Both the position numbers and the translations under genes were made by a program. The notes under the pieces were generated by a model. It was given only the letters and a program-made list of their open reading frames with translations. It did no database searches and was not told where the DNA came from. 64,000 nt of DNA from Paragorgia papillata (lineage: Eukaryota > Cnidaria > Anthozoa > Scleralcyonacea > Coralliidae): NCBI GenBank assembly GCA_035771165.1, contig JAWNZC010000105.1, positions 408,001 through 472,000 of the forward strand. The letters run 5' to 3'. Shown here piece after piece: positions 29,791 to 52,330 of the stretch (its first letter is position 1; each line of letters starts with the position of its first letter).

Positions 29791-29832
29791 CTGCACTGAT
29801 GAGCTGTGGTACAGCGAAACGTACGTCTGCAG
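29791..29832 (+). ncRNA. Type I hammerhead ribozyme, 188-bp unit 3
   Basis: Identical in core and stems to unit 1. Confidence 0.9.
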
Positions 29833-29978: not shown

Positions 29979-30020
29979 CTGCACTGATGAGCTGTGGTAC
30001 AGCGAAATGTACGTCTGCAG
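29979..30020 (+). ncRNA. Type I hammerhead ribozyme, 188-bp unit 4
   Basis: One change, C to T at 30008 after GAAA, which keeps stem III as a G-U wobble pair. Confidence 0.88.
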
Positions 30021-30166
30021 ATTGAATATATATGCTCCCACATTCCGGTGTGGTTGAGCACTCTATGGATATAAATAGGTAACAAATAGCATTACGCATA
30101 GCCCACCACTCTAGCAGTGGTTTGAGCACTCTGTTCCTATAATAACATATCCATGTTCGTTCCGAG

Positions 30167-30208
30167 CTGCACTGATGAGCTGTGGTACAGCGAAACGTAC
30201 GTCTGCAG
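30167..30208 (+). ncRNA. Type I hammerhead ribozyme, 188-bp unit 5
   Basis: Identical in core and stems to unit 1; the array ends in (TA)n just after it. Confidence 0.9.
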
Positions 30209-30215
30209 ATTGAAT

Positions 30216-30311
30216 ATATATATATATATATGCTCTATCTTTACGGTATTGAGCACTTTTAGACATTTCGCGAACAACACTTTGTTTGTTTGAATATATA
30301 TATATATATAT
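30216..30311 (+). repeat. PLE terminus fragment
   Basis: CGGTATTGAGCAC and TTTCGCGAACAACAC between two (TA)n runs, as in the arms at 26628-26850. Confidence 0.7.
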
Positions 30312-30726: not shown

Positions 30727-30840
30727 CATGGCCAGAAATTTGGGACATGCGCCTGCCTTGTGCAGCGGCTTTCAGTATGATAATTAGATACCGCACGCCT
30801 TTTACCCAGCGGCTTTCCGTATGATTATTAGCAAAACAAT

Positions 30841-31863
30841 ATGGCTGCCAGCCTGAAAAGAACTCGTACAACTACAAATGTCGATTACAGACAATTGAAC
30901 TCGTTTTCGTCTGCTATTTTGTACGACACGATGCCCAAAAGGAGAAATTCAAAGTTTTATGATGTTGAAAGGATCATCGAGCGAAGGAAAAGATCGCAAG
31001 TAATTTTTTAACTTTGGCGAAATTTACTTTATATTAATTATTATATTTTATTTATAAATAAATATATATATATATATATATTATTAAATATACATGTGTG
31101 TTCTTAGCAAATTACTGGTATTTATTACTGATGCCAGAGTATAAAGGATTCCTTCTGAAGAAGTATAAAGTTGTTTTCTTAATAATTTAATTGATTTTTG
31201 CAAGGATATGTTTAAGGTTTAATTATCTTTTTTTCAAGGCTACGAGTACCTTATCAAGTGGAAAGGATGGCCATTCCATAGCTGCTCGTGGGAGCCATCA
31301 GAAAATTTAACCCTGGCTCTTTTAAGGTATTTTTTATTTATAAGTAAATAACCTATAATTTTTTCTATCAACTTGCCACTAGTAACTAAAGATATTTGGC
31401 AAACATTAATTAAATTGCACCTATTTTATTGGTAGGAGTTATGACCAGCCACCCAAACCAGATGGGCCTAGGCTTGAAAGAGCATGCCGAGATTTCATGC
31501 ATGCGATTCAGTCAGGTCTAAAGTCAAAGTCCATTGGATCAATTTATGTCAACATGGACTTGGATGTGTGGCGATACATTACCTACAATCAAGGTATAGA
31601 ATGTGAGCACAAGGGCCACACATTATACGAGAAAAAGGACTTTGGACGCTTTGAGGGCTTGCCGGATGATTGGTTTTATACCCTCAATCTACATGGTGAA
31701 GGCATGGCAATAAATTTCCCACATTAAGGCAAAACCGATCGTTTCATGGACTCCTTCTAAGTTTGTGATAAGAAATAGAAAATTAGAAATGGCACCAAAA
31801 ATGCCTCTTGAAAAAATTACAATTGTATTTGCAAAGAGAGCTTGTAACATTGATAATGTATAG
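30841..31863 (+). CDS. Chromodomain protein of element X (probably damaged)
   Basis: Exon 1 (30841-30999) ends FYDVERIIERRKRSQ. Exon 2 (31239-31326) reads YEYLIKWKGWP then SCSWEPSENL, the aromatic-cage core of a chromodomain (Y, W, W/C-WE). Exon 3 (31436-31863) encodes a globular tail (DLDVWRYITYNQG, YEKKDFGRFEGLPDDW) shared with the Y copy. Chromodomains bind methylated histone tails, so a role in target choice or chromatin is plausible. Two problems: the exon 1 donor phase (0) does not fit exon 2 (phase 1), and a frameshift near 31722 shifts the last 45 codons (IKAKPIVSWTPSKF). Both may be mutations or sequence errors. Confidence 0.75.
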
Positions 31864-32198
31864 GTAAACATGTATTACATAAGAGAACATAAATAAATAA
31901 TTATGCACTTATCATTGTTTAGACCCAGGGTGGGGGTGTCCATCCTAGGGTTATTTAAATGTACATCTTGGCTGATGTTTTTATAAATGTGGTATATATC
32001 AAGGTGAAAAGTCCCTGTAGCTGTGATCTAGTACATTATAGATAATGTACAGCAGTGGCCATGTTAAGGTAATCCTCGGTAAGTATTGATAGTCCTAGGG
32101 TTTCTGTCTCCACCCTGGGCCTAAATATTGATGACTGCATTAATATTAACTATGTTGTCATGAAAAAATACATTACTATAGTATTTACAACAACATAA

Positions 32199-34083
32199 TT
32201 ATACTGATTGAGACTGCAAAGCTATACGATACATGTCAAGCAGTCTTGTGACATTTCTTACTCTTGTTTTGATACCCAAATCTTTTAAACGTGATCGAAG
32301 TACTTCTGGTGTAAGAGTCGCAAAGTTGTCTTCATTTTCATCAGCCTGCTCCTGATTACATAACCGAGGACGCTTGGTGCGACTTTCCCTAATCCCTGTT
32401 GACCAGTATTCATCTGCTTTCTTCTGATATTGTCTCGGTGTCCTCCGTACATCACGTAAATATCTCAGCCTCTCCTCAAGCAGCAAAACATCTTTAGCTG
32501 CATCCCACTTGTTGGATTTCTCTAAATGAATACGCCTGCAGTCGTCGTTCAGTTTTTCAACACCTACAGTAATTTGTAAAAGATAACATATAACATCTTA
32601 TATTATTTTACATCTGACAAATTGACTAAACCATGGGAAGTATTATTGATAATCCCTTGGTTTTGGGTTGAATAAGACTAAGAACAACATCAATTAATGC
32701 AAATTAATATTGGAAAAACCTATCGATACAAATATATCATAATCATGCGTCAATTTATAGAAAAACACAAATGTTGCTCACTTCCTGGAAACACCTGAAC
32801 ACGGCCATTATTACTTCTAACTTAGATGTAAAGTAAACACAGTTACCTTGCCCAGAAAAGTTTCGTATTCCTTTGTGAATCCTCATAAAGCGAGGCACAT
32901 GGTACACCATAGCGTGAATATATGGTGTAACGTTTGCTTTGCCATAGCCATTTAGAATTCCACCAAGCGACAGGAACAGTGTTACCCAAGCTGTAACCTG
33001 ACATAAAAAAAAAGAAACAATGTTGTGTCAAAGTACAATACAATGTGAATGTACAATACTAGTATGTCCTAGTATTTACCACATAGCACTGTTTTGTTCC
33101 AATGTGCCATAATTAAGAAACAAAGAATATATGGTATATTTCTGATTAATCTGGTGTGCCTTGGTGAAATAGGTATCAACATCTGCCTCTGTTAGAGCTT
33201 TCTTCTGGATGTAATCTTTGTAGATATGGTTGAAATCCTGTCAAAGCATAATTGAAATGGCCCCTCTCAGCTTCAAATGTAGGTACCTGTAATTAGCCAT
33301 TTCAGACCTTGGATCATGCTTTATTATTCAGAACATTTTTTATTTCATATATATATATATATATATATAGTAATATATTTTATTTATCTAATCAGTTTAC
33401 AGCTTGCCATTACACGGTGTTTCATGCTTTTGCAATCATCAGACATCAGAGTCGTCTGATTGCAAGCTGTAAAATTAGATAAATAAAATATATTACTCTG
33501 TTAGTTCTACAACTTTGTATTGAGCACTCTGCTTCCTAGGAAACCCCCTATGCTGTGCTATATTTATTTACGTATATATATATATATATATATGACGAAG
33601 GGCCTTCGCTCGAAACGTTAGTTTCTCTCTGACGAAGGGCCTTCGCTCGAAACGTTAGATTCCTACGTTCTCTGTTTCGGCAGTATATCTAACCTAAGTT
33701 ACTATATTTCGATTGTTGTTTCAACACTGCTTACGCAGCACGCTACTTTTATTTCACTATATATATATTATCTACCTTCAAAAGTATCGAGCACTCTGTG
33801 GTCTATTGTAAACAACTACTTTAACTATTATATATATATATATATATATAAAGTATAAAGTATAGTTTTACCTTAAAGTCTTCGCTACCAGAGGTTTCAC
33901 CCTAAACGGGATCATCAGGCGACTCCTCTTTCAGGGTCTCGACTCCTCTTTCAGACTCTCGACTTTCAGGGTGAAACCTCTGGTAGCGAAGACTTTAAGG
34001 TAAAACTATACTTTATACTTTGTATTTTGCTCTATCTATATATGGTATTGAGCACTCCCTAACATTTCGTGAACCAAAACTCA

Positions 34084-34151
<68 letters not shown>

Positions 34152-36939
34152 CTGTTGTACTGTTGTACAGCGAAACACCGTGTCTGTAGATTGAACTATA
34201 TATATATATATATATACACAGCTAGAACTTTTGTGAAACAGACCGCTGCTGGGATACACAAATGGAAATAAAACATTTATTATACTGACAAATACATACG
34301 AAAAGCACACTGTACCTTCCAAATCTTAATCACTGTAGCACTTGTTGCAGGACTGATTATGCCATCTAACTTCAGTGGTAGCTTTTCCAGTAGAATTTTC
34401 TTGTCTGTTCCCATCAGACTGGTGCAGTCATGCAAACCGCTTCCTTTACCATCGGCATTTTGCTTTTCCCAAACAGAAAATGACACACCACAACTGCAAA
34501 TAGCTTTAACAAGGTTTTGAAGATGCAATGGTTGTTGGTTACATGGAGCTTTTCTCAAATTTGCTGCCTTATCACGTTCTAAAGCTTCATTTACCAAATT
34601 ATTAATAAGCTTGTCTATCAGAAAGATAAATTACACATTAATATATATTACAGTATTATCTGATTTTAAAGGTAAAATGCTGAAAAATAAAATTAAAATA
34701 CATTTAACTGTTATGTAACCTGTAATTCGTAGCATCAAATGAAGCTCGTCCAGGACAATGTTTTCTAAGGGAATATTGAGCAGAGGAGGGCGTTCACAAG
34801 AAAACTGCTGTTTTAGGCAACATGCTCTTATATCATTTAAAGTCCTTCTGATATCATCCATCCAGTAGAAATTTTCTGGCCTTGTCATATCATATCTTTA
34901 ATATAAATGTGAAATTGGTTCACCATTCAATGTTTAGTCCAAGGGGGGAGGGGGGGGGGAGGGATGGGATTTTTTATATTTTCCATTAAAATGTCAAAAT
35001 CTGTACACTACCAATTTACACTACCAATTTTCCTTCATCAATGCTCACAAAAATCGCTTTAACTTTAGCTCTTTATTTTTTCACCTTACCTTAATATCTT
35101 GTGAATCTTGCACCAGATACAGGCATGGTCTGATGTTGCTGCTTTCATACCCATTAACAGCAACAGAAACTGTAAATAAAAGACTGCAGTTTATCAATCA
35201 AGTTCACTTCGGCAGTGCTTCCACTCGCATCAAATAATATTGCCGACTGGTTGGGAATCAAACCCGGGCCTCCTGCATGGCAGGCAAGAATTCTACCACT
35301 GAACCACCAGTGCAGAAGTCATATCAATATTAACAATTTAATGATCAAATTAATTAATTATTAATTTACAAAAATAATACAAATCACCTTGTAGTCTCCA
35401 CCAACAAACATCTCCACAGGTACATGATTTTCAGCTATTTTCAAGAAGCCAGTTTCCACAATCTTATTCACATCATTAAAGATCCTTGCACATGATGATT
35501 GAAGGATTTCGTACGACTCTTTTCCCTTAACTATAGCAACTGTGTGATTCCCTGGGAGGAAAAATCTTAGTTTCAAGACAAACAATTATCTGACTAGTAT
35601 ATTATATATATATATATATACATACAACAAACTGTAACCTTTGGATGTTAGTGCAGCTTCCCCGTCATTCAAAATTGAGAAGGAAATGACTATGAATCCA
35701 GTAAGTCTGGTCATTTTTGCACCATCACCACTTAGCTTGATCTTGTATTTTCCTGGGACATCCAAGCCATCCAGTGTGCACTTGTTCATCTAGATGAAGA
35801 AATAATAAATTCTTTATGCTTGTAAATAAAACATGATTGATTAATTATTTCGACAAACTTACATGTTTTTGGATTTCATTGCAGAGTGCGTCATAGAAGT
35901 TGAGCTGTGCACCTTCAGATACTCCCGGTGTCTGCTCAATGTGTGTAAGTGCATTCAGTGACTCTTTGCACTGTTTGATGAGGTAAGACCGTGGTAAGTT
36001 ATCCCCGGCTTGAGTCACACTCACTTCGTGATAGGCAGCCTCACCTATGCAAAACTGGTCTACTATTAACAGGATTTCTTTTATTCTGTTTTTTTCCTGT
36101 TCTGAAAGATCCTTATAACTCTTTCCCTGTGATGTGGTTTGATATGTCAAGGAGTAATTTAACCCACATTTATCAGTAAAGGTTGCTGATTCCAAAGTGA
36201 GGCCAAAGGTTTTAGCAAACCACAGGCTCCTTTCCACATACGTCTTTAGTTCAATTAGTTTGCGATGTCGCTGCTTTTTCCCAAGCTCTGATATTTCTTT
36301 CCCTGTATTTTTAAAATTAACAAAAATTCCAACGTTTTCAAGGTAATCGCTTAGTTCCTTATTTTCGTCCAAAATAGTCTCATATTCTTTCTGTTTACTG
36401 TTTAATGCTTGATTGGTTGTTATCTTGCTATGTTTTAATGTTCCTATTTCTGTCCACAGCTCCTCGCACCTCTCGTTCAGTCTTTCATTTTCTTTTGACA
36501 ACAATTCTACCTTCTTGTTTGTATCTTTTATTTGGACTTGAACCTCAGCCACCCTAACTATCTCATTGTGGTAAACTGAAATGTATTTTATGTTACCAAA
36601 ATATTCAGCTTTTAGACGGCCCTTAAGCTTGCAGCATTTACTCTTTATTTCTCCACAGCTTCTCCTTAGTAAACCATTCATTCTCTCGCAGTCGTTAAGT
36701 TGTATTCCATGTTGGGATATGAATGCATTCAAAATTTCATTAAATGAGTTCTCACCCAATGTGCCACTTTGCTTCAAATCATGCCCACTTCTCAAATGCT
36801 CGTACGGAATACCAATAGTCAATGCAATGTCACTATCGTTAACAGAAGCTTTTCTTGTATAACTTAAACAAAGTTCAGTAGACAAAGAAATCCTTTGCTT
36901 AAATTTATTCAAATCAAATCGTTTCAGAATATCAGACAT
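32199..36939 (-). CDS. Element X transposase-like protein, nine exons
   Basis: Exons: 36939-35863, 35789-35639, 35551-35388, 35169-35090, 34895-34720, 34614-34316, 33237-33080, 32997-32847, 32563-32199. Splice sites are GT/AG and phases agree except at exons 7/8, where I could not fit one. Exon 1 is a long coiled coil. Candidate catalytic acids: SGDGAKMTR (exon 2), LDELHLMLR (exon 5) and GVEKLNDD (exon 9), with a Cys pair HACIWCKIH (exon 4) and [11 protein letters not shown] (exon 8). The last exon ends in a SAP-like DNA-binding helix pair ([14 protein letters not shown]). About 890 residues, no stop in any exon. I recognise an abundant uncharacterised family of cnidarians and sponges; the transposase role is inferred from TIRs and motif layout. 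Confidence 0.75.
33370..33500 (-). repeat. Inverted-repeat retrozyme-like element with hammerhead
   Basis: Arms of about 36 bp (AGTAATATATTTTATTTATC, TTTACAGCTTGC) flank a hammerhead read on the minus strand (33396-33473): core CTGATGA at 33436-33442, stem II TGC/GCA, GAAA at 33420-33423, cleavage after GTA. Stem I is an unusually long 12-bp helix. Lies in intron 6 of the element X transposase gene. Confidence 0.65.
33590..33770 (+). repeat. PLE terminus fragment with repeated GACGAAGGGCC motif
   Basis: Two copies of GACGAAGGGCCTTCGCTCGA followed by AACGTTAG, at 33592 and 33632. The second is preceded by CT, giving CTGACGA and GAAA around a GGGC/GCTC stem, a hammerhead-like but imperfect core (one extra A). 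(TA)n on both sides. Confidence 0.5.
33858..34015. repeat. Inverted repeat of the PLE B terminus
   Basis: Arms of about 47 bp (TAGTTTTACCTTAAAGTC and complement). The left arm on the minus strand has core CTGATGA, stem II CCC/GGG, GAAA and ACC/GGT, i.e. the same ribozyme as at 28507. The centre holds a repeated GACTCCTCTTTCAG. Confidence 0.7.
34087..34150. repeat. (TA)n microsatellite
   Basis: Uninterrupted TA run of about 60 bp next to the truncated retrozyme end. Confidence 0.95.
34151..34200 (+). repeat. Truncated retrozyme end
   Basis: The 3' half of the 277-family hammerhead (ACAGCGAAACACCGTGTC then TGTAG) without the CTGATGA core, between (TA)n tracts. Confidence 0.7.
35243..35313 (-). 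tRNA. tRNA-Gly(GCC)-like gene, probably pseudogene or SINE head
   Basis: The minus strand reads GGTGGTTCAGTGGTAGAATT (A box and D arm), anticodon loop CTGCCAT (anticodon GCC) on a five-pair stem, and GGTTTGATTCC (B box). The acceptor stem mispairs at its last two bases and the T stem at two, so function is doubtful. It lies in intron 3 of the element X transposase gene. Confidence 0.65.
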
Positions 36940-37656
36940 TTAGTTTGCATATTCAAATTATGGCGCCCAATGGCGCGTAAACTACAACAGGGAAATGGGG
37001 ATATGTGGCAGTACGAATTAGCACTAATTTCCCCTCAGGACACCATTTTCTCCTTTTATCCTACACTATTAAAACGCCTGGTTTCTAAGGTTCTTGTTGA
37101 TACCAAACATGGCGAAATATTTTCAAAGAAAACAGTTTTGACAAGGTTTATGGACATCCGTGCTCATCAAAATTCTCGTATGTGGATTATTTTGGATCAG
37201 TGGATTTTCATGGTTTTCCACGCTAAAATGTACGCGGTTAACCTGAACGGATCACTTTCAAAATTGCAGGAGGAATACTTGATAATGTGTTGTTTACGAG
37301 GGGAGGGCGGCAAATTTGACCAGAAATAAAACGGGTCATAAACGGCCGGACTAAACTGTTCGTTCTCGTGGAAATGGGGCTGGAAATATACAGTTACTAC
37401 CAGCCAGATCAATACTGAAGTCGCACTAGAAATGTAACCCCATGGAGGTAAGAATACGGTATGAAACTTATTTTGTTTGACTACCAACGTTTTGCTTGTG
37501 TCATATCAAGGGCGGCAAATGCTATCGCTGCAATTGAACTCGCTCAAATTTTAATAATATGCCGCTACCCTTATATTTTACATATAGTACTTCCGCCATC
37601 TTTGTTTACTAAATTGCGAGTATGCGCAGTTTATATGTCCCAAATTTCTGGCCATG

Positions 37657-37852
37657 CTGCCTACATTCCTCGACCCCCCTCCCCCTAAACAATGTTGTAT
37701 CACCACAAAACATTCGTGATTTGTTCTCCATAGGTTCGCATAACATTTCCGTTAATGGGAAGCCAACATTGAATAGGGGGGATGGGGGGATATAAAAACA
37801 TTGTGCAATATCTTAATACTTTGGTGCACATGTTACAACTCATTCAGTACAG
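37657..37852 (+). mobile_element. MITE R, right part
   Basis: Almost the same as 57180-57368 (ACATTCCTCGACC, GGGGATGGGGGGATA, ACATGTTACAACTCATT). It lacks the final inverted terminus found in the 57 kb copy. Confidence 0.8.
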
Positions 37853-37974
37853 TAGTGGTTGTAGTATATTTTTACGACAATGGTGATATGTAAATAACAA
37901 GCTGTATTTTGCTTACAAACCTCTAAATGTGTCTGTATAACAGTAAATGACATCTTTACCACGCCTTATGTTAA

Positions 37975-38055
37975 TTTCTGTTGAACCCCTATTAAGTGGC
38001 CACCTGCCATTTCCCCGAGGGTGACCGCTTAATAGAGGTTCCACTGTATTTTACA
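37975..38055. mobile_element. Tiny fold-back MITE
   Basis: GAACCCCTATTAAGTGGCCACC and the inverted GGTGACCGCTTAATAGAGGTTC around a 20-bp centre. The ends resemble pogo-like termini (CAGTGGAACC). Confidence 0.55.
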
Positions 38056-38264
38056 CAGTAATGCAGATTGTGAGAAATGGCTTACGCCATGTACTCCTTT
38101 ACTTTTATTATTCATGGTCAATGAAGGTCGCAGTATACCCTTAAAAATTGTTTCCAAAGTGTCATGACGTATACTATAACACCTTTTCTCATATTACATT
38201 GCCATTGTGACACCCACTGTGTCTTCGTAGTTCACATTGAACTTTTCAATTGCGATTGAATGCA

Positions 38265-39615
38265 ATGGAATTCTTACAGTCTTATAATAGCGATATGTCG
38301 AGTACATCACCAGAAGATGAAGAATTACATACTCGCGAAGTCCGTCAAGTATATTTGGTTACTTAGAGGCAAGCGGATACTCAAGTTTCCCACACGACAA
38401 TCTTTTGCAGAAGCTATTGTTGATTCTTTCTCCATGCGATCTGCAGTCGTTTTACAATGGTGTTGTTCGAAAGAGTTGCACAAAAAATGGGGAGTACACT
38501 ATCATGTTTCTGTGAAGCTTGATAGAATTCAACGATGGTTGCCATCAAAGAAAGCACTGCAAAAAAAACATGGCATATCTGTTCATTTCTCAAGCATCCA
38601 CGCTAACTATTTCACCGCGTGGAAGCCAACAAAGCGACAACCAACAAAGGGACAACCACCCAGATTTAACCAACAGCAATGGATCTGCAACTATGAGAGC
38701 CCAACGAAACCTTCAAACAACGCAGAAAAAAACGTATGCCACTGAAATCAAGCGATGAAGAAGACCCCGACATTACTGATGATGAGTCGAACGCGGATAC
38801 GAAGAAATGGGCGGCGAAGAAGCGGAAACGACTCAGTGCTTTTGACGTATCGGAGATCATAGTAGCAAAGAATCTTCGAGATCGGAATGCTTTGCTAGCT
38901 TTTGCTAATATGCAAAACGGGATGGGAAGAGTGATTTGGCAGAATTCGTCATCAACCGGGGAACAAAAGTTGCGAATGAACTGCTAACTAATGCATGGGA
39001 GATGGAAAGCGCAGAACGCACTAATGAACGAAACAAAAAATCGGGAATAGATTTGCTGAAAGAAGCATATGACACAAAATGTACTTGTGAAACGGAAAGA
39101 GAGTGGGGGGATGTGTGCGTTACAGCTACTGGAGAACAACCACATACCGCGAGAACTGTTTGCCAAATCAATGAGGGAACTACTTGAAAGGGGTAGATGC
39201 AAATCGTGGTAAAACGTTCCTGTTAAATCCTCTCAACAGAATTTACAACACCTTCACCAATCCGGCATGCACAAGTTTTGCGTGGGTAGGAGCAGAGAAC
39301 GCTGAAGTCGTTTTTCTTAACGACTTCAGGTGGTCTCCTCAAATTTTAGCGTGTCATGATCTGCTTCTCATGTTGGAGGGGCACCTGGTTCATTTACCTG
39401 CCCCTAAATCCCATTTTGCCAAAGACACGACATTCGACGGAGATACACCAATCTTTTGCACTTCGAAACGACCGATTGTTTATGTGAAGAACGGACAAAC
39501 CGACGAACGAGAGACGGAGATGATGGCCGTCAGATGGAAACTTTTCAATTTCACCCGCCAGATTGCCCAGCATGAACAAAAGGAAGTGCAACCCTGTGGT
39601 TCATGTTTCGCATGA
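38265..39615 (+). pseudogene. Decayed Rep-like protein: HUH endonuclease and SF3 helicase
   Basis: A first frame (38265-38364) gives an acidic N-terminus. The next frame holds WCCSKELHKKWGVHYHV, whose HYH fits the HUH metal site, and a downstream NYFTAWK where the expected Tyr-xx-Lys segment is lost at a frame break near 38625. Further frames lead to a helicase part: ANRGKTFLLNPL (end of a Walker A whose start is deleted near 39195), VVFLNDFRW (Walker B-like) and TPIFCTSK (motif C-like). At least five frame breaks. The domain order is that of rolling-circle/hairpin Rep proteins of small ssDNA replicons and related transposons. I recall many such copies in cnidarian genomes; whether the source was a virus or transposon is open. 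Confidence 0.75.
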
Positions 39616-39989
39616 CTTATATTAGATATTGAGGTATAACTTCCCTGGGGCGCCGGAGCCACGGGGGCAGCTGCCCCCCCTGCCCTCACGGTGCGGGTGC
39701 AGCACGGGGGCAACCTATTGCCCTTTACCTTAATTAAGAGGCATATTTTCTGCAGAATTAGTAACGCAAATGTTTTACAAGCTAATTCATTGCTGTAGCA
39801 TACTTGCCAACATTTTGATTTAGGAAAGGGTACCGTCAGCGTTGACGTCACACACAGTGTACTTCATGTATGCCTGACCACAATCTTATGTCTTGTGCCC
39901 AGACCTCTTTGACTTTGCGGTTATCATGGCCAGAAATTCGCGACATTGAGCCACTATGTCGTCAGCGGTCAACCGCGTAAAAATTCAAA

Positions 39990-40888
39990 ATGGCGTCGAA
40001 GCGTTTGTCCACACGAGTGACTGACTACGTGCCGCTAGACAACTTTAGCTCTGTTGTTTTGTTCAATGATACTGCCCCACGAAGGAAAAAAGGAAAGATA
40101 TATGAAGTGGAAAAGGATAATCAGCAGAAAGAAAGAAAAACACGTAAGTATTAAAGCGGAACTGTCGATCTGGTTGAAAGTTGAAATTACCAGCATCAGC
40201 TATTATTCATTTATTGTATATTTTCGGTTCATACAAATGATTCGCCTGTTAATCTTACGCATTTTTGCTATTGTAGGACTTTTTATATCTTATTAAATGG
40301 GCTGGATGGCCCCTACAGTCCTGTACATGGGAACCTTCGGCCCATTTGCCGACCAATTTACTAAGGTATATCACACTATGATATCAAATTTAAACACGAT
40401 TCTGTAGAATTTCTGTTTCCTTTGCTTTTACTGTTAATAAATACAATAGATATTAACAGAGCGGTTTATATTCCTCTGTTTCTAGAGGTTATGAAACACC
40501 GCCGAAGCCTTCTCTTAGTAGATTGGAGAACAGTGCAAGAGCATTTTCCTGTGGCATTTTGTCCATGCTGAAGTCAAAGTCACTGGGACATGGATATATT
40601 GAAATGGACCACCATTGCTGGCGCTATGTTAGCCAAGGAAAAGGAAACCCCTCTGAACATAGAGGTTATTCTTTGTACGGGAAAAATGACTTTGTTCGCC
40701 TTTCAATGCTTCCCCCTGACTGGTGGTATTACTTAAACGAACATGGGGAAAGTAAAAAGGTAGACTTTCCCATTAAGATTAAGGCGGTGATTAGTTGGTC
40801 CCCCAAAAAACACATTTTTAAAAGAGAGAATCTTGTAGAAGGACCAAAATTCCCCATAGAAAAATTAAGTGTTTTGATTGCCATGTAA
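39990..40888 (+). pseudogene. Chromodomain protein of element Y
   Basis: Exon 1 (39990-40143) ends KIYEVEKDNQQ; exon 2 (40279-40366) carries LYLIKWAGWP then SCTWEPSAHL in a frame that does not match the exon 1 phase; exon 3 (40486-40888) encodes GYETPPKPSLSRLENS through WRYVSQGKG, YGKNDFVRLSMLPPDWW and ends at 40888. Exon 3 is fully open and extends past the point where the X copy is frameshifted. A one-base change in exon 2 probably inactivates it. Confidence 0.7.
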
Positions 40889-42273
40889 TCAAAGAAATCT
40901 TTTTAATTAGATGAACACTTTATTTTTATTACATATATAACTTTGTTTGCTCTTGAGTACTGTACAGTTTGTTCTAGGATCTTAAATTTAATATATACAT
41001 GTCATTTTAATACAATTATTTATCTTCGAGTGCTCTCTTCAAAATCTCTTGTAATTTTTCTAATTTTCGTGCGTGTGTTTGCACTCCTAATTCCTTTAGT
41101 TTTTCTTTAATTTCAAAAACTGTAAGAGATTCGATATCTAAAATACTTTCTGAATTGGTTTCTTGCAATTCGGGGTTGGGGGCATTTAATAGCTTTCTTC
41201 GTTTACTTCTTGTTTCTTTAATTTCAGTTGACCAATATTCACCATTTGTCTTGTTATATCTTCTTCGTACTCGTTCGCTGGTTAGTTGCAGTCGCTTACT
41301 GACAAGCAGGATATCTTTTGGAGCATCCCATTTGTTTGACTTTGTCAGATGAAATTTTCTCACATCATCATTGTTCTTCTCTACCCCTATCAGTGGCCAT
41401 TTATAAAAGGAGAAAACATATGTATGTGCTTGGAAATTAACCAGCTTATGCAATTATTGTCATCATATTAATACCATACATTACCTTGCCCTGTGAACTT
41501 TTTTATGCCACTGTGTCTCTGCATGAAATTTGGGACATGGTATACCAAGCAGTGCATGTATGGTGTAACTTGTTGTTTTCCAAACCCAGTTACTTCACCA
41601 CCCAAGGAAACAAATAGTGTTACTCATGCTTTAGCCTAGTAAAGCAATCAATATTTGATTATCAAATGAGAAGAACAATTCTAATTAACCCATTCCTGCC
41701 TGAAACAGACTTTATAATTATTGATTTAATCTGGCTAAAGCTAGCCAATTGTATTCAGAACAGGAAAGGACCAGCTGTGTAATCTTGGTAGGAATATCAT
41801 TATAAATACATATTGCACTCGCCAGTTCAAAGAATTCATTAATTCTTTCAGGTGAGGGATTGCACTCATTCATCATCTAATAAAGCTGACCAAAGTCCTA
41901 AAATGTATGAAATGGCTGGGGGTTTAGTTTTTGTCGTGTACTGTATGCATATTTTCACAACATGTACATGTTAATTAGAATAATATAAATTGCACATTTA
42001 ATTTAGATATTACCTTCCAGATTTTGATGACAGAGGCACTGTTGTCTGGCTTAATTATCCCATCTAGTTTATTTATTTATTTATTTTATTTAAACATATT
42101 TTATTTATCGACATTTTCTCCAAGAGCTTAGAGCTCATCAAGGGAGATTGTCTAATTTTTACATTGAAATAAATGGAGTACAGCACGAGGTAAATAAAGT
42201 TTAAGACAAAGATTAGGATATTGGAAAAGCTAATCGGAGATCATATTCAAACAGATTAGAGAATATCAACTTA

Positions 42274-45200
42274 CTAATCAGTTGAGCTAGTAAATCGCTT
42301 TGTGTTCAAGATGAATAATTGAACGTTATACATCAAGATTTGATTTTCTTCATTACTAATCTGTTCTGAGCCATGTAGAAACATTTCAATTATTTGATCA
42401 TCTGATAAACTCGACCATGTGGTGTGGAGCAACTGCGCAGATGAAGAAAGTAGTTGTCGTTGAGTAGCATATCGAGGACAATATAAAAAATAATGCTTAA
42501 TGTTTTCAACTATTCCCCATCGACATTTACAAAAAGGAGAAGATTTACAATTAATTCTATATAAATAAAAATTTAGTGCACAATGACCTAGACGGAGCCT
42601 AGTATGTAATATTGAGCCATATCGATTTAATGAAGTATTGTAAATTGTGTTACATTTTTGTCCACAAAAATAGCTACATAGTTTGCTCTTAAATAAAGAT
42701 AATGGTTCTATATTACATATGTTATCATCAAGTTCATTCCAAGCTGCAATTGCCGATGGGAAAAAGGATCTCTTAAAACGTTCAGTATTAGTAGGGATAT
42801 ATGTAAAGTTTTCATTGGATCTCAGCAAGTAATTATATCTTTGACTAACATATGGAGGCAGTAGGTCATGAAGGTAGGATGGCGTGAAGGAGTTCATTAT
42901 TTTATAAAGTAATGATAATTTATGTAAATGTCTCCTAGTTTTCAGGTCTTCCCAACATAATTCATTTAATAATCGCTTTCTATTTGTTCCTTTCGTAGCT
43001 CCATGCAGTAACTATACGAGCTGATTCATACTGAATCCCTTCTAAGAGATTTGCTGATAAGAGATGACATCTGCATATTCCATCAAAGGTCCAATAAGAC
43101 TTTTATATAACGAAATAAGGCTTGATCTATTAAGCTTATATTTAACACCTTTTAAAACATTCATCATTTTACTAGCTTTTTTATGTATACTTAGTATATG
43201 GTCAAACCAAGAAAAATTTGATGAAAACTTCAACCCTAGATGAGTATGAGAAATAACTTCTCTTAGAGCAATGCCATCTAAATATAAAGTAGGGTGTGAA
43301 GGTTTAAAAAGTTTTTTCGAAAATATAATACTTTCACATTTAGTAGGATTCATTTCCATTAACGATTGCTTACACCACTGGTTAATGTTATGAAGATCCA
43401 TATTTAATCTCAAAGCAGCATTTGATTGATCATCAACTACATCAAATAAAGATGTATCATCGGCATAAAGAAAACAATTTGATACAACATTTTCACTTAT
43501 GTCATTAATATATATAAGAAAAAGCAATGGCCCGAGTACAGAACCCTGTGGAACACCAGCTTCAATATCTAACCAGCTCGAGCTCTGCCCATCGATAACA
43601 ACTCTCTGCTTTCTATCTGATAAATAACAACGAAACCAACTTAGAAGTGGTTCTTTTACCCCAAGAATTTTCAGTTTATAAAGTAATCCCTCATGCCATA
43701 CTTTATCAAATGCTTTACTAAAATCGAGAAAAACCATACGTACTTCTTTTCCCATTTCTAGAGCTTGGTAAATCATGTGGACAATATAAGTGAGTTGATT
43801 AACAGTGCCATCTCCAGGTCTAAAACCGGACTGAAAAACATTGAGATATCGTATTTCTAATAAGAATTCATACAATCTTGCAAATACAATTTTCTCTGGA
43901 ATTTTTGAAATGGATGGAAAAAGCGATATGGGGCGATAATTCTATTTATATTGGCTATTATCTTTTTTGTATATAGGAGTTAAATTGGCTTTTTCCCATT
44001 CGGTGGGATATTCTCCCACTTGGAGGCTTAAATTTATTAAATGTGTGAATGATTTTGTAATGCCATAGCTGCATAATTTAATGATTTGGCTTCCAATGCC
44101 ATCATGACCACAAGCTTTTGATATGTCAACCTTATTCAATAATTCAAAACTTCTTGTTCCGTTGTCTGGATTATTGATAATGTTTTATCGGTGCAATCAT
44201 GCGTATACACGGATAATGGCAGCTGGTGATTGCTGTCATTAACTCTAGCTTGACTAGCAAAATATTCATTAAACATGTCAGCTTTTTCTTGCGTTAAAAA
44301 TAATCTCAGCATCCTCTTTAATTGCTGGGATAGATATACGGTTATTCTTATTAAGAATCGATTTAATATAACTCCACCATTTTTTTGGACCCAAGGAAGA
44401 GTCCGATAGTTTGTTATTTAATTTATGATAATAAGAAATTTTTGCTTCTCGAATCAATGACGTTGTACAATTTCTTTGAGTTTTATAACTCTGCCAGAGA
44501 GAACTTGTTTTTTTTTTACAAAATTGTTTTAATAATGTATTTCTTTTTCGGATCGTCGTTCGTACCACAGATGTCATCCATGGTTTATCCCTAGGACGTA
44601 TTACAACTGTTTTGTTCGGAATATATTTGTTAATTATAAAGCGAAAATACCGAGACCAGTATTCATAAACATCATCAATTTGTACAGATTCTCTGACACA
44701 ATCATCCCAATTAATATTCATAAGATCTTCATTCAGCTTTGTCACGTTGACATTGCAAAAATCCCATGTGTCATTTATAAGCTTTTTGTTTATAATATGT
44801 AATACTCATTTTTGCATAAATAAAAGAGTGGTCACAATTTGTAGGTGGACTGTATGTACCAGAATCTACAAAATATCTTGGACAGTTAGTGATTATGACA
44901 TCTAGTATTGTAGCTATATTATTTGTCACACGAGTTGGTTCATTGATTATCTGGAACAGGGCATTGCACTCAAGCCATTAATAAGTTATTATGGTCATAA
45001 TGGGCATTAAAATCACCGATTATCACCACAGGCGAATGAGGATTTTGTCTAATTGTATCAAGAACACTTTGGAGAGAATCCAAAAAAATCGAAGTTTCTT
45101 GTAAAGAATTGTTCGGCGGTCTATAACATACCCCACATAACAGAGCCAATTTATGCATCTTGATTTCAACCCAGAGCAGTTTTAAATTGTCATTTTCTAA

Positions 45201-45833
45201 GTCATCGCGTCTTTTACACGCAAGTGATTCTGCTACATATAAAGCGACACCTCCACCTCGCATATAAAATCGATCTTTTCTTATAGAGCGTTTTCATCGA
45301 CGTCACAGCGGCCATATTGGTGTACCAAAACAATGAAATGGCGGCCATATTGGTGTATGGTATGGGAATTAGCTCTTATTCAAATATTTCGTATTGTTTC
45401 ACCACCCCAATGGGGTCACCGATCACGTGAGTGAAAACGCTCTATAATTGGGTAATAACCTAGTGTAAACAGAGACTCACTAGGAGTTTTACCGCTCCAA
45501 CCATGTTTCAGATACCGCAAATAAATCAAAGCTTTTATCCAAAATAAACGAGGAAATTTCGTCAAATTTATCTTCATTTACAAGACTTCTAGCATTAATG
45601 TGTCCTATTGTAAGATACGATGTTTTTGGTCCAGGATTTAATTCAACGTCTCCTGCCATTAACCAAATCATTAGGAAGGGAATAAACAAAATGCATAAAC
45701 TTAAACCCAGTACTAAACAACTTAGTGATACTTCGAATCTTAAGAAGCGATATTTTCTGTTATTAAACATCCCGATAGCTGCTCTATAAATAATGAGGCT
45801 AACCTCCATTGAATAAATAAACAAACTTACCAT
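42274..45833 (-). pseudogene. LINE ORF2 with 2A-like N-terminus: endonuclease and reverse transcriptase
   Basis: The N-terminus has a hydrophobic stretch and then GDVELNPGP (45653-45627), a canonical 2A motif, just before the AP-endonuclease (GHINARSL, VSETWLE, MRGGGVALYV, VVIIGDFNAH). The RT follows (KACGHDGIGS, FLDFSKAFDKVWH, AGVPQGSVLGPLLF, catalytic FLYADDTS near 43470) and a C-terminal Cys-His segment (CKCRWGIVENIKHYFLYC). Frame breaks occur near 45480, the MITE at 45284-45444, 44970, 44280, 44140-43900 and 43040. 2A would separate the leader from the enzyme by ribosome skipping. Confidence 0.85.
45284..45444. mobile_element. TA-flanked MITE inside LINE ORF2
   Basis: Ends TAGAGCGTTTTCA and the inverted TGAAAACGCTCTA, flanked by TA on both sides, with an internal GGCCATATTGGTGTA direct repeat. 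Tc1/mariner-type target. Confidence 0.8.
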
Positions 45834-46156
45834 TCTGCACAGTTACTCCAAAACCACCTATCATAATCTTAAGACACACAAAAATCAAACAAGGGGAACT
45901 CAAACGGACTCTCACAAAAGACATAAATATATATAATTAATATTAATGAAGTTAGGAATAAAGTTAGGAATGAAGTTAGGAGATTGAATAGGAGGACTAT
46001 AGGTGCGGTCATACGATGAAAAAATGAAAAAATACTATGTTCCCGCTCATGAATCACTTGATGAATTCATACCACCAGGTTAAATAATTTAATAAAGTCA
46101 TCCATCTACCGCATAGTTCTTGCGTGTGTAGATCTGCATCTGAATCACTTGATAAA

Positions 46157-46861
46157 TCAAACCAAGTTAAATTTAACAAAATCAGCCATTTGACGAATTC
46201 GTATTATTTTACCATCTAAATTACGAATTAAAACTTTCCCATCTGTAGACCAAACTGATTTGATTCGACTGTTATGTTCACGAGCGTAGTTGAACAATTT
46301 AACGTTAAACTTAGTCAAATCTTCATTAATATAGAACCGTGTACCTTTTAAATGCTTGCGTTGTCTGCATATTGCTGCCTTTGTACCATACGATTTGAAT
46401 TTTATTATTACCGGTCTTATCCCATTTGAAGTTTTTGGACCAAGGCGATGTGCACGATCGATATCTTTCTCGTCTATACCGACGTCCAACTTTTCTTTAA
46501 CGAAGTGGACTATTTCATCAACGCAATTCTCGCCTTCGCTTTCATCCAAACCTATGAACCTCAGATTGTATTTTCTAGAGTATTGTTCATTTTCATTCGC
46601 TTGTACTTGTACTTTTGTTAGTTCAGCTTCCAAGGATTCAATTCTCTTTAAAACAGGAAGTGTAGCTTGTTGAACGGCATCTACGATGAGAGTAGTCACT
46701 GCTTTAGAGAGAATTTCTTTGAAGTCATTTGATCTAAAGAAATGGTGTAACTCGCTCTGTATCGCTTCTCTCATGTCCGCTCGAAGCTCGGCAGATTGGG
46801 ATGCTGCTTGTCTAGGTTCTGGCATACTGGTATACTTCATAGACAATATATTATTTAGCAT
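46157..46861 (-). CDS. LINE ORF1, L1-type RNA-binding protein
   Basis: 234 residues, open. A helical coiled coil (LPVLKRIESLEAELTKVQ) leads into YSRKYNLRFIGLDES, the start of an RRM like that of L1 ORF1 (Transposase_22), then DRAHRLGPK and a C-terminal domain (RFYINEDLT). L1 ORF1 proteins trimerise and chaperone element RNA. The start is the first Met of the frame; 46861 lies about 115 bp inside the LINE. Confidence 0.8.
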   Translation of the reverse strand: MLNNILSMKYTSMPEPRQAASQSAELRADMREAIQSELHHFFRSNDFKEILSKAVTTLIVDAVQQATLPVLKRIESLEAELTKVQVQANENEQYSRKYNLRFIGLDESEGENCVDEIVHFVKEKLDVGIDEKDIDRAHRLGPKTSNGIRPVIIKFKSYGTKAAICRQRKHLKGTRFYINEDLTKFNVKLFNYAREHNSRIKSVWSTDGKVLIRNLDGKIIRIRQMADFVKFNLV

Positions 46862-47295
46862 GCACCTTCTAGACCATAAAGAACAATCACATGCTTAGAG
46901 AAATATCCTTTCACAAAGTATAGAGTCAAATTGTCGGAGCTCAACAAAACACGTCTCCACTCCTTGAACTAACTTCACTAGTTTATCTGGGAGATCCCTC
47001 ATTAGTAGTTTCTTGTCCAAACCCATCAAGCATGTGAAGTCGTGTATCCCATTTCCTTTTCCATCTACATTCTTTTTTCCCCATACATTAAATGAAATGC
47101 CGCATTCCTGGATTGACTTGACAAGGTCTGATTGATGCTTGCTCGTCCTATCCGTTGGTGCTTTATTGACATTCTGTTTACTGTCCCATTCTGGAGCCTC
47201 GTTGACTAAACGTTTTGTCAAGATGTCTACATATTTTGATAAAATTAAAAATAGACAAATTTAGTTTACAATGATTGATTGATATGTATATTTTT

Positions 47296-47483
47296 AACAA
47301 ATAGATTCCATTTTGCCGTTGTCTGTTCAGTTATAGATGCACAGATGACGTCACAACGTGGTAAGAACAAAAAAGTGGCCCACGAGACGCAGTCGAGTGG
47401 GTCACTGATGTTCTTACCACGTTGTGACGTCCTCTGTGCATCTATAACTGAACAGACAACAAAAAAATGGAATCTATTTGTTT
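47296..47483. repeat. Fold-back repeat with about 75-bp arms
   Basis: Left arm from AACAAATAGATTCCATTTT through GTCTGTTCAGTTATAG and ACGTGGTAAGAACA; the right arm is inverted and near-identical. The centre GGCCCACGAGACGCAGTCG can itself pair. Within an intron of the Y transposase-like gene. Confidence 0.8.
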
Positions 47484-47648
47484 TATACAATAAAAATTTA
47501 AAAGGTCTTTATCGAAACTCGTGCCGGATTTTGGCATGAAGAAGGAAAAAGGCAAGTCAGCTGACGTGATCTGACGTGACCATGTGTCTGTCCTCTAATA
47601 GATCATGGCCAACAACCAATGAAAACACGCATAGCAACTAGGGTATTG

Positions 47649-47679
<31 letters not shown>

Positions 47680-47807
47680 TATCATCTTTTATTATATGCT
47701 TAGGTTGATTTATTTAGAATAATGTGAAATGCTACTCTTGAGCAGACCCAGACAGGGTATATGTGAAGTCTTATTCACCCAGTCCAGTAGTTACTGTGAG
47801 TATAGCC

Positions 47808-48945
47808 TGCGTTGCGGCGCTTGGGGTTGGGGGGAGTGTAGCAACAAGCGAGCGACGAAGTCGCGAGCGAGTGGAGAGGGGGGAAGGTGGGGAAGAAAGG
47901 GGAAAGGGAGGAAACAAAGGGGAGGGAGAGGGAGCGCCTGCACGAAATACCCATATTTTTGGATTTCCGCGGCCGTCAGCGACCGCAAAATTCTGATTGG
48001 CTGACGAATCATTAGTATTCAAGGCTTTCCTTCGTAGGAAATGAATCATTGCAAAATGGCGATTTTAGAAGAATCGTGCGTTGATGATATTCTTTCCGAA
48101 GCGTTATCATTTAGCTGCTGGTTGGCAGGAAAAGACGATTTGCTGTCTTACCTACGGGGTTTGGCAAGAGCTTGATTTTTCAAACGCTTGTGCGAGCGCG
48201 TGATTACCAGTTGGCAGGAAAAGCAGCTATCATTGTGATCTCTCCTAGCTTGAATAGTATTATTAGGGACCAACTGGATGACATGGAAATCCAAGGTTAT
48301 TCTGCCGTTGATGCGTCGTTAATACCTCTGGAAGATATTCGTAAATGTTCATTCAAAATAATCTTTGCCACCGCAGAAATCGTGAGAAAGAAGCGGTTCA
48401 TGGAGATACTAAGAGATTCGAGTTGTCCTTCACCAGAACAATTACATCGCTGCTATTGTGGTCGGCAGCGTTTCTTATTTATCTTCCACAAGGCCTACAA
48501 ATTCCTTCGGACAGAGTTCCACTGCGTATTGGTAATAACTTATTAAAAGCCAATGGACTCGAATGCTTCTGCCAGAACCGAGTCTTGGCTCTCTTGTCTA
48601 CGCAATGGCTTGAATAAATTTTCAAATCAGTTCTTACTTCCAGTAAGTGCAGTCAGCTGGCAATCGCAGAACCTGCAATTATTGTTACCGGTTTTAGACA
48701 TGAATAATCATGAGCACCGCAGCGATATATTTCTACGGGAAAAGTGAAATCCAATCATGCGTTACGTCGTGCTCTGAGGAAACCCGCTAAACACTGATCG
48801 GTTGAATTTTGGCAATTTGATAATTGGATTACTAGGGGTGGAAATCCAAAAACATGGGTCTTTCGTGCAGGCGCTTCCTCCCTCTCCACTCCTTCTTCCC
48901 TCCCCCCTCCCAAACCCCAAGCGCCGCTACGCAGGCTACTGTTGA
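47808..48945 (+). mobile_element. Long-TIR DNA element carrying a RecQ-like helicase remnant
   Basis: Left arm (47812-47990: AGCCTGCGTTGCGGCGCTTG ... GCGCCTGCACGAAA ... TTTTTGGATTTCC) matches the inverted right arm (48838-48945) with a variable G-rich stretch between. Between the arms lies a helicase gene fragment. Nested in an intron of the Y transposase-like gene. No clear target duplication. Confidence 0.7.
48056..48797 (+). pseudogene. RecQ-family helicase fragment
   Basis: N-terminal residues AILEESCVDDILSE, then a Walker A LPTGFGKSLIFQ reached only through frame changes (near 48130-48180), motif Ia-like VISPSLNSIIRDQ and FATAEIVRKKRF. The middle and conserved C-lobes are missing, but a typical tail NHALRRALRKPAKH and stop occur at 48750-48797. 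RecQ helicases unwind DNA 3'-5'. Inside long TIRs it looks like the cargo or core gene of a transposon whose interior has been deleted. Confidence 0.7.
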
Positions 48946-49429
48946 GTAGCATTTTGCATTTTAGTCTTATTGACTTGTTTACAAGGAATGTACCAAGGGG
49001 TGAATCACAGAGGGACATGGTTCCCTCTGGGAATGCATCAGTGAGCTCCACATGTATCTAGAGAGATATGTTTAGGTCAAACATGACAGGCATGTAGGCC
49101 TATTTTATGTCAGTCTCAGTCCCCTGTACACAGTCTTGCATGTGGTATGACGTACTAATTAGGAAAGAGTGGGTAGGAGAATAAAACTAACATACATGTA
49201 TAATAGGCCACCATATCAGCCATGTTACTATTCGCTGGTCAATTACCCAAAGAAATCTCTCCAGTTATACAGAGTTCACTGACTGATATCGACATTCTGA
49301 GCACATATTTATTACCTGTGATGCGAAGCATTAAATGTAGTTCATCCAATACTACATTTTCAAGCTTAATTTTAAGCAATGGTTGATGTTGACATGAAAA
49401 TTGATTTTTCAGGGCACAATATTGGATTT

Positions 49430-49735
49430 AGATTTAGATTTATTAACTTTATTGCCTATAGCAACTGGTGGTGAAACAGAGCGAAATGCCCTAATTGAAC
49501 ATGACTACCATGATGTAAGTGTTGGTTTTGCGGGGGAGGAAAATCGGAGAACCCGGCGAAAAACCCTCGAAGCACAGGAGGGATCAACTACAACTCTACT
49601 CACATTAGTTTCCAGCTTGACAACGGGGTCATTCCCAAGCGGTCACCCATCCAAGTACTAACCCCATCTAATCGGGCTTAACTTTTGGTGAGAGGCAGCG
49701 TGCTAACAGCACACACCACCCGTGCTTCCCTAAAA
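49430..49735 (-). repeat. 5S rRNA-derived SINE
   Basis: The minus strand at about 49690-49610 reads TTAGTACTTGGATGGGTGAC, the internal promoter part of 5S rRNA, followed by a body with GAGGGTTTTTCGCCGGG and a 3' end of (TTTAGAT)-like repeats. A degenerate 5S head with an unrelated tail is the SINE3 plan. Confidence 0.75.
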
Positions 49736-52330
49736 TGTCCTTATGTGAGTGACAATCATGCTTTTCCTAGTAATCAGTACGACAAACAACATATAGATAA
49801 ATATTGCTGAATTAAACATTGACACACTGCATGTTGCACTTAGTCAAAATAATAAGAATAATAATACCTTAATGACTTACACTAAATACATGCATAATCT
49901 GAGGTGGCTCCTTTAAAACCAAGTATCAACAAAAGAAAAATACATGTAAATATAAATCACTGGTGGTAATTTGAATATCAAGTATCAGCAAATGTTTAGT
50001 GGGTTTTGTGAGTATTAAGTAAGGGTTAATCAATGGTCACTTATGTAATTTAAAAGATTTAACATTGCTTGGGATGTTGAATAAAATATTTAACAAAACA
50101 GTTGGATCAATAAATTCAGGGTGTAGTTCGTAATTCAGGGTAATTGGCATTATCAATGCATACATGTAAATGTTACCTTGTAATCGCCTCCAACAAATAA
50201 TTCAATGGCCACATCCTTATCCTTAATTTTCCCGGCACTTGCTAATTTATTTATGTCATCAAAGATCTTTGAGCAAGAAACTTTCAAGAGATCATAGTCT
50301 TCATGACCTTTGATAACAGCAACTGTATGATTACCGACATAAAGAAATTATACAAATAAATTTCTTTCTATAATAAAACTTAATTTTAACTTAATATTTG
50401 AAATTAAAAACTAAGATTTTACTGAAGACAGACAAAATGATAGAAAAATACCTTTTGATGACATTAGTGTCTTCAGCATTTAAGATTGAGAAACTGATAA
50501 CAAAATTAGTCAGTCTAGTGATCTTTGCACCATCACCACTGATTTTCACTTTGATGGTAGTATCTCTCAGTTTCTCATCAGCCTCCATCTAAAAATTGAA
50601 GGTTGCCAACTGGTTAAATGTTTTACCAGATTATTTAATACATTACCAACAAATATATATGTAATGTTGCATCCAGATCAACCGAGCTCATGTACACTTT
50701 TCCATGTGATGTGTCAAAAAAATATGAACATATAAATAAAGCACATCTGTGATTAAATTCTTGCTGAACAGACCAGTTAGTTTCTATCAATATAAACTTT
50801 AAAGCTGGGTCGAGTCTGGTTAAGCTGACTGTAGTCATTAACCGCCGGATGATTCAAATATACCATAGATTCCGGGGTATTATCCTCTGGAACTATATAC
50901 ATCACCAAGGACATTTATGGAGCCTGGATATATACATATAGAAGCGATTGTGTAAAGTAAATTAATAAAATTATGCATGGAGTACTATTTATATCTGAGC
51001 TTTCTCTTGGAGATGGGGGGGGGGGGGGAGGAGGTACTTGTGAAATTGGGAGTATATGCACAAGAAGTGTCATTAGTATGTTGCAACAAAGTGGATAGGT
51101 GTGGATTAGAACACCGTGTTTAGACACATGGGGTAACCTTCACAAGGGGGTTTATTTATTGAACTCTACAGGCCCATACCTACTGCGAGGCAAAATAAGT
51201 CATGCCCCCCCCCCTCTAAATTTGTTATAATATATTTTAGCAGTAATCTTACCGTCTTTTCAATCACAGTGCTTAATTCCTCATGTAAATTAAGAGCGGC
51301 CCAATTAGCTTCTCCAGGCGTTTTTTCATTGCAGAAAAGCTTGTTTAGGTCGTCTTTACATTGTTTCACAAGGTAAGACTTAGGAAGTTGCTCGCCTCCT
51401 GGGCAACAGGTTAATTCGTGGTATGTTGCTTCACCAATGCAAAACTTGTCCATGATTAACAAATACTGCTGGATTATCTGCTGCTGTTCACGTGGGAGAT
51501 CTTCGTATGACTTTCTTCCTTTTTCTCCAAATGAGAGAGAGAGTAAGGTTTTCCAGAATCATCAACCAGGTTAACACTGTCCAAATGCAACCCAAAGGAT
51601 TCACTGAACCATAATGCCTGTTCAATCCTTGTTTCCAAGGTCCTAACGTTCCGTTCTTGTTGGCGTTTTCCAACTTCGGAAATTATTTTCCCTTTGTCTT
51701 CAAATTTTCTTTGAGGGGAAAGTTTTTCGATAACATTGTACAAATATTCATTTTCATACTTCAATTTCTCTATGTCTATAGAGGCCTTATCAATCTGTGG
51801 TTGGATTTTGTTTACCAATGTCAACGTCTCCTTACACTTAAGGTCTAATAGACTATTCTGACTTATAATCAGGGCATTAGCCTTTTCTAGTCGTGAGACT
51901 TCGCTTTCCAAGTCGCTCACCGATGCAAGTGTAATTAGTTCCCTTTGTTGTACAGCAATACTCTTCACTTTCGTTAGCAAATCTTGTCGACGTCTTCCAG
52001 TTTTGCCGACCAATTGTCGTGTCGCTTTCAAACAAGCTACCCGTAAGCGTTCCTCGACTCTCGAACAGTCCTCTTGGATCTTTGTAGGATACCGTTCAGC
52101 AATAAATGCGTTCAGTATTTGTACATACGACCATTCAACCAATCCGGTTTGCTTGGTTTCGTACCAACTTTTGTTAATACTGGGCGCCATGTTTTGCTGG
52201 AGTTACGCATGAGCAGTATCGCGTGTCGCAAATTTCTGGCCATGTAGTAGGTTTTGTGAAGTTGTGAAGAAATTTGGCCAGTATTCATCTCAAGCAAGTT
52301 CCTTCCTGCTCACGGTAAGAACTATCAGTT

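Follow-up and report, generated by a model that had tools for sequence, protein, structure and literature searches.

A two-gene family of recently mobile transposons in Paragorgia papillata pairs a RAG1-like transposase with a chromodomain protein

RAG-like transposons carry two convergent genes, RAG1L and RAG2L, between termini beginning with CAC, and make 5-bp target duplications; the RAG2L partner is a subunit of the recombinase and, among invertebrates, has a C-terminal PHD finger in all except amphioxus (excerpts of PMC7204232). CAC termini and 5-bp duplications are also described for Transib (PMC7204232 and PMC4411706, in excerpt). The lineages of the CMCT clan (EnSpm/CACTA, Mirage, Chapaev, Plavaka, ESTA and Lanisha) have the series D, D, C(2)C, H(3-4)H, E, mostly CA..TG termini, and 2-5 bp duplications; fungal PlavakaB has CATCA..TGATG termini with 2-3 bp duplications, and ESTA was first recognised through its HHpred similarity to RAG1 (excerpts of PMC12730594). 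Here we describe a family from Paragorgia papillata that we compare with these systems. Two of its members, elements X and Y, lie in the 64,000-nucleotide stretch analysed (the window; positions 408001-472000 of contig JAWNZC010000105.1, hereafter C105, assembly GCA_035771165.1), and the genome (617.9 Mb, 473 contigs) was searched for others, named below by contig. The family is real, has moved recently and combines two genes, one for a RAG1-like transposase and one for a chromodomain partner kept under selection. We consider it probable that X and Y represent an autonomous family of cut-and-paste transposons in which the transposase has a RAG1/Transib core and the chromodomain protein acts as cofactor.

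The two elements and their termini are as follows (window positions).

30727..37656, minus strand (that of the transposase gene): element X, 6930 bp, complete between its termini
30727..30748, plus strand: left terminal inverted repeat of X, 22 bp, 0 mismatches against the right end
37635..37656, minus strand: right terminal inverted repeat of X, 22 bp, a match to the 22-mer
39925..52244, minus strand (that of the transposase gene): element Y, 12320 bp, decayed, with a nested retrotransposon inside
39925..39946, plus strand: left terminal inverted repeat of Y, 2 mismatches against X
52223..52244, minus strand: right terminal inverted repeat of Y, 2 mismatches against X
42064..46990, minus strand: non-long-terminal-repeat retrotransposon nested in Y and foreign to it, reverse transcriptase at 43045-43941, borders by eye

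A first, sequence-only reading had proposed that X and Y share 22-bp inverted termini and two convergent genes and yet differ in sequence throughout, and all three statements were borne out. With up to 3 mismatches allowed, the 22-mer CATGGCCAGAAATTTGGGACAT gave four matches in the window, exactly at both ends of X (0 and 0 mismatches) and of Y (2 and 2), and none in 100 shuffles. The junctions of X with its flanks read ...cgctct / CATGG ... CCATG / ctgcct. The convergent gene order was seen in both elements. An ungapped repeat search found only short matches between the DNA of X and that of Y, which are therefore old relatives and not the products of a duplication; both are decayed.

In the whole genome the exact 22-mer occurs at eight places and its reversed control at none. 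At five of the eight (C19, C91, C105 twice, C320) lies an element that retains the transposase gene at least in part; the other three are on C437 (twice) and C448, and C437 retains just a piece of transposase exon 1. With the X protein as query, tblastn matched at least 61 pieces. Homology between copies starts at a CATGG- or CATTA-type terminus in four groups (C64/C237; C77/C203/C37; C378/C353; X/C91/C19/C127); in the third, the C378/C273 and C378/C375 homologies extend 1 and 15 bases past the terminus. Near-identical copies stand at separate places (C77/C203, 99.7% over 4578 bp; C64/C237, 99.9% over 3885 bp), and 12 elements are delimited at both ends (X, Y, C77, C203, C64, C237, C353, C437, C91, C320, C225 and C215), all of 5.3-7.9 kb except Y, 12.3 kb.

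Gene pairing was followed in 24 stretches, 22 chosen loci plus X and Y, two of which (L039 and L044) lack both the transposase end and a chromodomain gene. Among the 22 with a transposase C-terminus, 19 are followed downstream by a convergent chromodomain gene, which lies on the other strand; none was seen at L028, L031 and L046, where 1554, 893 and 646 bp downstream were covered, respectively. The 19 include near-identical copies and form about 11 groups by DNA matches. As a separate observation, L039 (C437:332410-339173) has lost most of both genes and holds, within CATGG termini, a 442-aa frame for a pogo-like DDE_1 transposase (E 7.8e-33).

Empty sites could be read for four insertions in repeats. 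They indicated a 1-bp duplication for C353 (6 loci) and C203 (3 loci) and a 0-bp duplication for C64 (3 loci) and C225 (3 loci), which excludes a regular 5-bp duplication as in RAG/Transib. Flank bases were equal in 7/12 elements (P 0.019 at an assumed match chance of 0.264), a result that is weak by itself; X, C237 and C437, for which no empty site was read, match over 2 bp, perhaps by chance, and none of the 12 match over 3-10 bp. Two schemes were ruled out: CATG as a 4-bp target duplication, since the C77 and C203 ends, CATT...AATG, are inverted and not repeated, and a universal 1-bp duplication, since C64 and C225 have none. The 150-bp flanks of C353:2040004 and C91:4342016 match the same query at 100% and belong to the same host repeat, meaning either a duplicated insertion or a site hit twice. 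Databases name the homologues "uncharacterized" or "hypothetical" protein, the one point that would suit a dispersed cellular gene family lying beside repeats by accident; the termini, the near-identical copies and the pairing speak against such an accident and the empty sites refute it, so that its probability is negligible. Terminus-bounded homology, empty sites and pairing together establish the proposed element family as real.

The transposase gene (gene 2) of X runs leftward from 36939. Its splicing was modelled by eye, giving the nine exons that had been predicted.

35863..36939, minus strand: X transposase exon 1, N-terminal and coiled-coil region, 99% tblastn self match
35639..35789, minus strand: X transposase exon 2, SGDGA, putative first catalytic Asp at 35724-35726
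35388..35551, minus strand: X transposase exon 3, GGDYK, putative second catalytic Asp at 35394-35396, aligned with RAG1 D708
35090..35169, minus strand: X transposase exon 4, CxxC (ZnC2-type ligands)
34720..34895, minus strand: X transposase exon 5, LDELHLM (aligned with RAG1 DALH795)
34316..34614, minus strand: X transposase exon 6, spliced by eye
33151..33237, minus strand: X transposase exon 7, 3' border uncertain, no GT donor
32847..32997, minus strand: X transposase exon 8, HxxxxH (ZnH2-type ligands)
32199..32563, minus strand: X transposase exon 9, GVEKLND, putative catalytic Glu at 32556-32558, SAP-like tail by eye
41019..52190, minus strand: remains of the Y transposase gene, with stops and split by the nested insertion; exon 1 about 51253-52190, last exon (GVEK) about 41019-41393

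In the alignment of homologues D366 (SGDGA), D447 (GGDxKF), C466 and C469 are present in 64/64 rows, H688 in 63/64, H693 in 62/64 and E713 in 60/64, and all the catalytic acids and zinc ligands of this alignment were found in X. Comparison with mouse RAG1 by hhalign paired D447 with D708, C466/C469 with C727/C730, H529 with H795, H688/H693 with H937/H942 and E713 with E962, with spacings identical to those of RAG1 from the second D to C (19) and from H to E (25). The first aspartate, D366, falls outside that alignment; it sits in strand 359-369 of the modelled core, where it would match the position of RAG1 D600. Judged from these alignments, the putative catalytic acids are those of SGDGA (D1), GGDYKF (D2) and GVEKLND (E). 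The sequence-only reading had rightly named the first and the last and had missed GGDYKF; its third candidate, LDELHLM, was ruled out as a catalytic site because hhalign pairs H529 with H795, which makes it the RAG1 H795 region and not the second acid.

The fold predicted for homologue P0004 contains an RNase H-like core, in agreement with the initial view of a DDE-like protein, and its RAG1 structural score is twice that of the P/hAT type. P elements and hAT transposons make 8-bp duplications and have a THAP or BED domain. That X and Y are a cut-and-paste element of one of these types is highly improbable: besides the difference in score, an 8-bp flank match was found in 0/12 elements, the four empty sites show no 8-bp duplication, and Pfam scans of nine family proteins (E up to 1 or 5) matched neither THAP nor BED. 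The available data support the transposase being a divergent relative of RAG1/Transib and not the orphan that it had seemed. The N-terminal half is largely coiled coil, and in Pfam the X protein gave nothing beyond weak coiled-coil matches; the SAP-like tail, seen by eye, had no Pfam match in X, and the SAP profile matched relatives only (E 0.011 and 9.7e-5), in both cases under the Pfam cut-off. Few structural matches span residues 1-268 of the P0004 model, where a counterpart was sought of the nonamer-binding domain that RAG1 has upstream of its dimerisation domain. The motif Cx2Cx3GHx4C, found at the C-terminus of RAG1L, is absent by eye from P0004 and L012. It ends P0110, P0114 and P0115, which belong to a large sister group of transposases (273 matches at E up to 0.001, part of them the main family).

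The CMCT clan is defined by an RNase H-like core with D, D and E and by the ligand pairs C(2)C and H(3-4)H, both located between D2 and E (PMC12730594, in excerpt); all of these were found here, the core in the predicted fold. The family could be a diverged member of another named lineage of that clan (EnSpm/CACTA, Chapaev, Plavaka, ESTA or Lanisha), with RAG1 surfacing only because the solved structures of the clan are those of RAG1 and Transib. This is possible, if somewhat doubtful. The C(2)C and H(3-4)H ligands are shared, CA..TG termini occur in most of these lineages, and both the PlavakaB ends and duplications and the way in which ESTA came to light offer precedents (PMC12730594, in excerpt); X, C237 and C437 have their 2-bp flank matches, and it is by descriptions, not by sequence comparison, that we set the family apart from CACTA, Plavaka and Chapaev. 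On the other side, the 2-5 bp clan duplications (same excerpts) were not seen at the four empty sites (1, 1, 0 and 0 bp), and no Pfam transposase family, Transposase_21 (PF02992) included, was matched by the nine proteins at E up to 1 or 5.

The chromodomain gene (gene 1) of X runs rightward from 30841 in three exons.

30841..30999, plus strand: X chromodomain gene exon 1, first half of the chromodomain, donor GT at 31000
31238..31326, plus strand: X chromodomain gene exon 2, KWKGW, putative aromatic cage, acceptor altered compared with the C91 copy
31436..31863, plus strand: X chromodomain gene exon 3, conserved C-terminal domain, frameshift inside, end approximate
39990..40885, plus strand: Y chromodomain gene, three exons, exon 1 frameshifted

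The copy in which the X acceptor is unaltered, C91, is 96-98% identical. With query proteins read through across small lesions, the Pfam family PF00385 (Chromo) was matched by X (E 8.8e-15, 54.8 bits) and by Y (E 2.8e-13, 50.0 bits) far above the 25.1-bit cut-off, as expected from the first description of the gene; at E up to 1, no other Pfam domain, and neither kelch nor PHD, was found in this protein of about 215-225 aa. Its closest relatives in the PDB are readers of the HP1/CBX/LHP1 type. At the positions that we take to form the aromatic cage, as in HP1, the residues are Y-W-W in X, Y and C353, Y-W-Y in C64 and F-W-Y in C77; since these positions are kept, the domain plausibly binds methyl-lysine. 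The C-terminal half is well conserved in nine homologues and poorly modelled, and its predicted model matched no known fold. In exon 3 the proportion of nonsynonymous differences (pN) was well under that of synonymous ones (pS), whose sites are saturated (C64/C215, pN 0.24 and pS 0.79; C77/C268, pN 0.24 and pS 0.77), a pattern showing that the partner was retained as a working gene of the element. The corresponding rates for the transposase (dN and dS) were 0.20 and 1.58 for C64/C215 and 0.35 and 3.9 for C77/C268.

The three chromodomain exons (by eye) stand beside single-frame transposases (C77, C64) as well as intron-bearing ones (C353, X, Y). At each of L011-L015, five of the places matched by tblastn, a single open frame (817-896 codons) encodes the transposase with 36-41% identity to that of X along most of its length, and these loci thus lack the introns of X. 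One genome holds both nine-exon (X, Y, L045) and single-frame (L011-L015) transposase lineages, with a three-exon chromodomain gene in both.

The transposase would consist of a dimerisation/DNA-binding domain, a pre-RNase H region, the RNase H domain bearing D-D-E, an insertion whose CxxC/HxxxxH ligands coordinate zinc, and a C-terminal domain. We propose that it binds the CATGG termini, excises the element through hairpins on the flanks, by homology with RAG and Transib, and integrates it at target cuts staggered by 0 or 1 bp. The product of gene 1, a chromodomain joined to a second conserved domain, would most likely assist the transposase as a cofactor, reading methylated histone H3 and steering or licensing integration, by analogy with RAG2 or the chromodomain of Ty3-type integrases. 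The protein may instead protect the element and keep it expressed, either by binding silencing marks itself or by competition with readers of the HP1/Polycomb type. The resemblance of the chromodomain to HP1/CBX/LHP1-type readers would suit this role, as would the separate TET/JBP dioxygenase gene of 11 fungal DNA transposon lineages, proposed to serve escape from methylation-based silencing (PMC12730594, in excerpt). The constant convergent pairing (19/22) resembles instead RAG1L-RAG2L (PMC7204232, in excerpt); it does not decide between the roles, and we regard protection as rather unlikely.

Several points weigh against a RAG1-type transposase served by a chromodomain cofactor. The similarity to RAG1 is weak (hhalign E 4.3e-4 with a probability of just 34; 16% identity in the structural alignment), and in the PDB profile search an unrelated coiled coil, 4c47 (E 7.7e-4), came close behind RAG1. 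Solved structures exist, to our knowledge, for no clan members but RAG1 and Transib; the RAG1 match therefore has no power to place the family within the clan. The modelled core is that of P0004, and X was spliced by eye, with GT-AG borders at 7/8 introns and no GT donor after exon 7. The empty sites give a mixture of 1-bp and 0-bp duplications, in two copies each. C437 and C448 are 96.7% alike over 1.5 kb beyond the terminus and hence represent a single insertion duplicated along with its surroundings. Constraint on the chromodomain gene is weaker in the more distant pair C64/C67 (pN 0.49, pS 0.73), and that the partner would contact the transposase or histones we infer from analogy.

More tentatively, and at slightly less than even chances, the family may form a superfamily of its own, as yet unnamed, among the DNA transposons of animals, placed beside RAG/Transib or as its sister, with a RAG1-type recombinase, a chromodomain cofactor in place of RAG2 and near-blunt (0-1 bp) joining. 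If so, RAG-type transposases would have gained a convergent histone-reading partner more than once. RAG1/RAG2 founded vertebrate antigen-receptor rearrangement, and it has long been asked why RAG2 has a histone reader. A second lineage, in which a RAG1-type transposase goes with a convergent partner gene and a different reader, would reveal the purpose of the partner slot, with chromatin reading as a recurrent need of recombinases of this class. The family lends itself to tests in cells, since it has near-identical copies whose transposase frames are open, and a RAG-type enzyme that transfers strands almost bluntly would be a test case for what determines the stagger.

Other features were noted around and inside the two elements. 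About 0.5 kb to the left of X end tandem arrays of 280-bp and 188-bp units (97 and 99% matches; window 28602-30221), and related pieces recur in inverted orientation within X, at 33.8-34.2 kb. Y contains a 74-bp inverted repeat (95%, arms 39 bp apart; 47296-47482) and a second inverted pair at 47918 and 48840 (51 bp, 88%; 47918-48890), which are perhaps nested non-autonomous elements. Remains of a hAT transposon (weak DUF4371, hAT dimerisation domain) lie directly to the right of Y at 53229-55134, and two protein kinase domain frames on opposite strands occupy 254-844 and 12699-13475.

Chromoviruses, which are Ty3-type retrotransposons, are mobile elements that code for a chromodomain; in the present family, by contrast, a small protein of its own carries the chromodomain, and a DDE transposase serves as the enzyme. 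The Spy transposase is of the PIF/Harbinger-IS5 type and unrelated. Spy elements (PHIS) are DNA transposons reported to make no target duplication, as seen here at two empty sites (via the reference list of PMC12730594, itself in excerpt). Among the literature titles and beginnings of abstracts searched, none linked an element of the RAG, Transib or CMC type to a chromodomain gene; a name may exist in Repbase or in subscription papers, most of which lay outside the search. With RAG-like transposons such as ProtoRAG the family shares the RAG1-type core, two convergent genes, short inverted repeats and a partner with a histone-reader domain. It differs from them in that the partner is a chromodomain protein with no Pfam kelch or PHD match and not a kelch beta-propeller RAG2L, in its CATGG/CATTA termini instead of CAC, in the 0-1 bp instead of 5-bp duplication at the four empty sites, and in a largely coiled-coil N-terminal half encoded in nine-exon and single-frame versions. 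Most Transib elements have one gene only, and the CAC termini and 5-bp duplications of Transib (HzTransib) are not those of this family, whose ends begin with CATGGCC or CATTACC and not with a heptamer-like CAC. The CAC..GTG (CACTA) termini of EnSpm/CACTA are likewise absent here, and its 2-3 bp duplication was not seen at the four empty sites. The CMCT clade agrees with the family in its CA..TG termini, of which those of PlavakaB come nearest, and in the order of D, D, C(2)C, H(3-4)H and E, whereas its duplications are of 2-5 bp and the excerpts of PMC12730594 mention no chromodomain gene. Altogether, the family belongs to the CMCT clan by fold, motif and termini and differs from it in duplication length.

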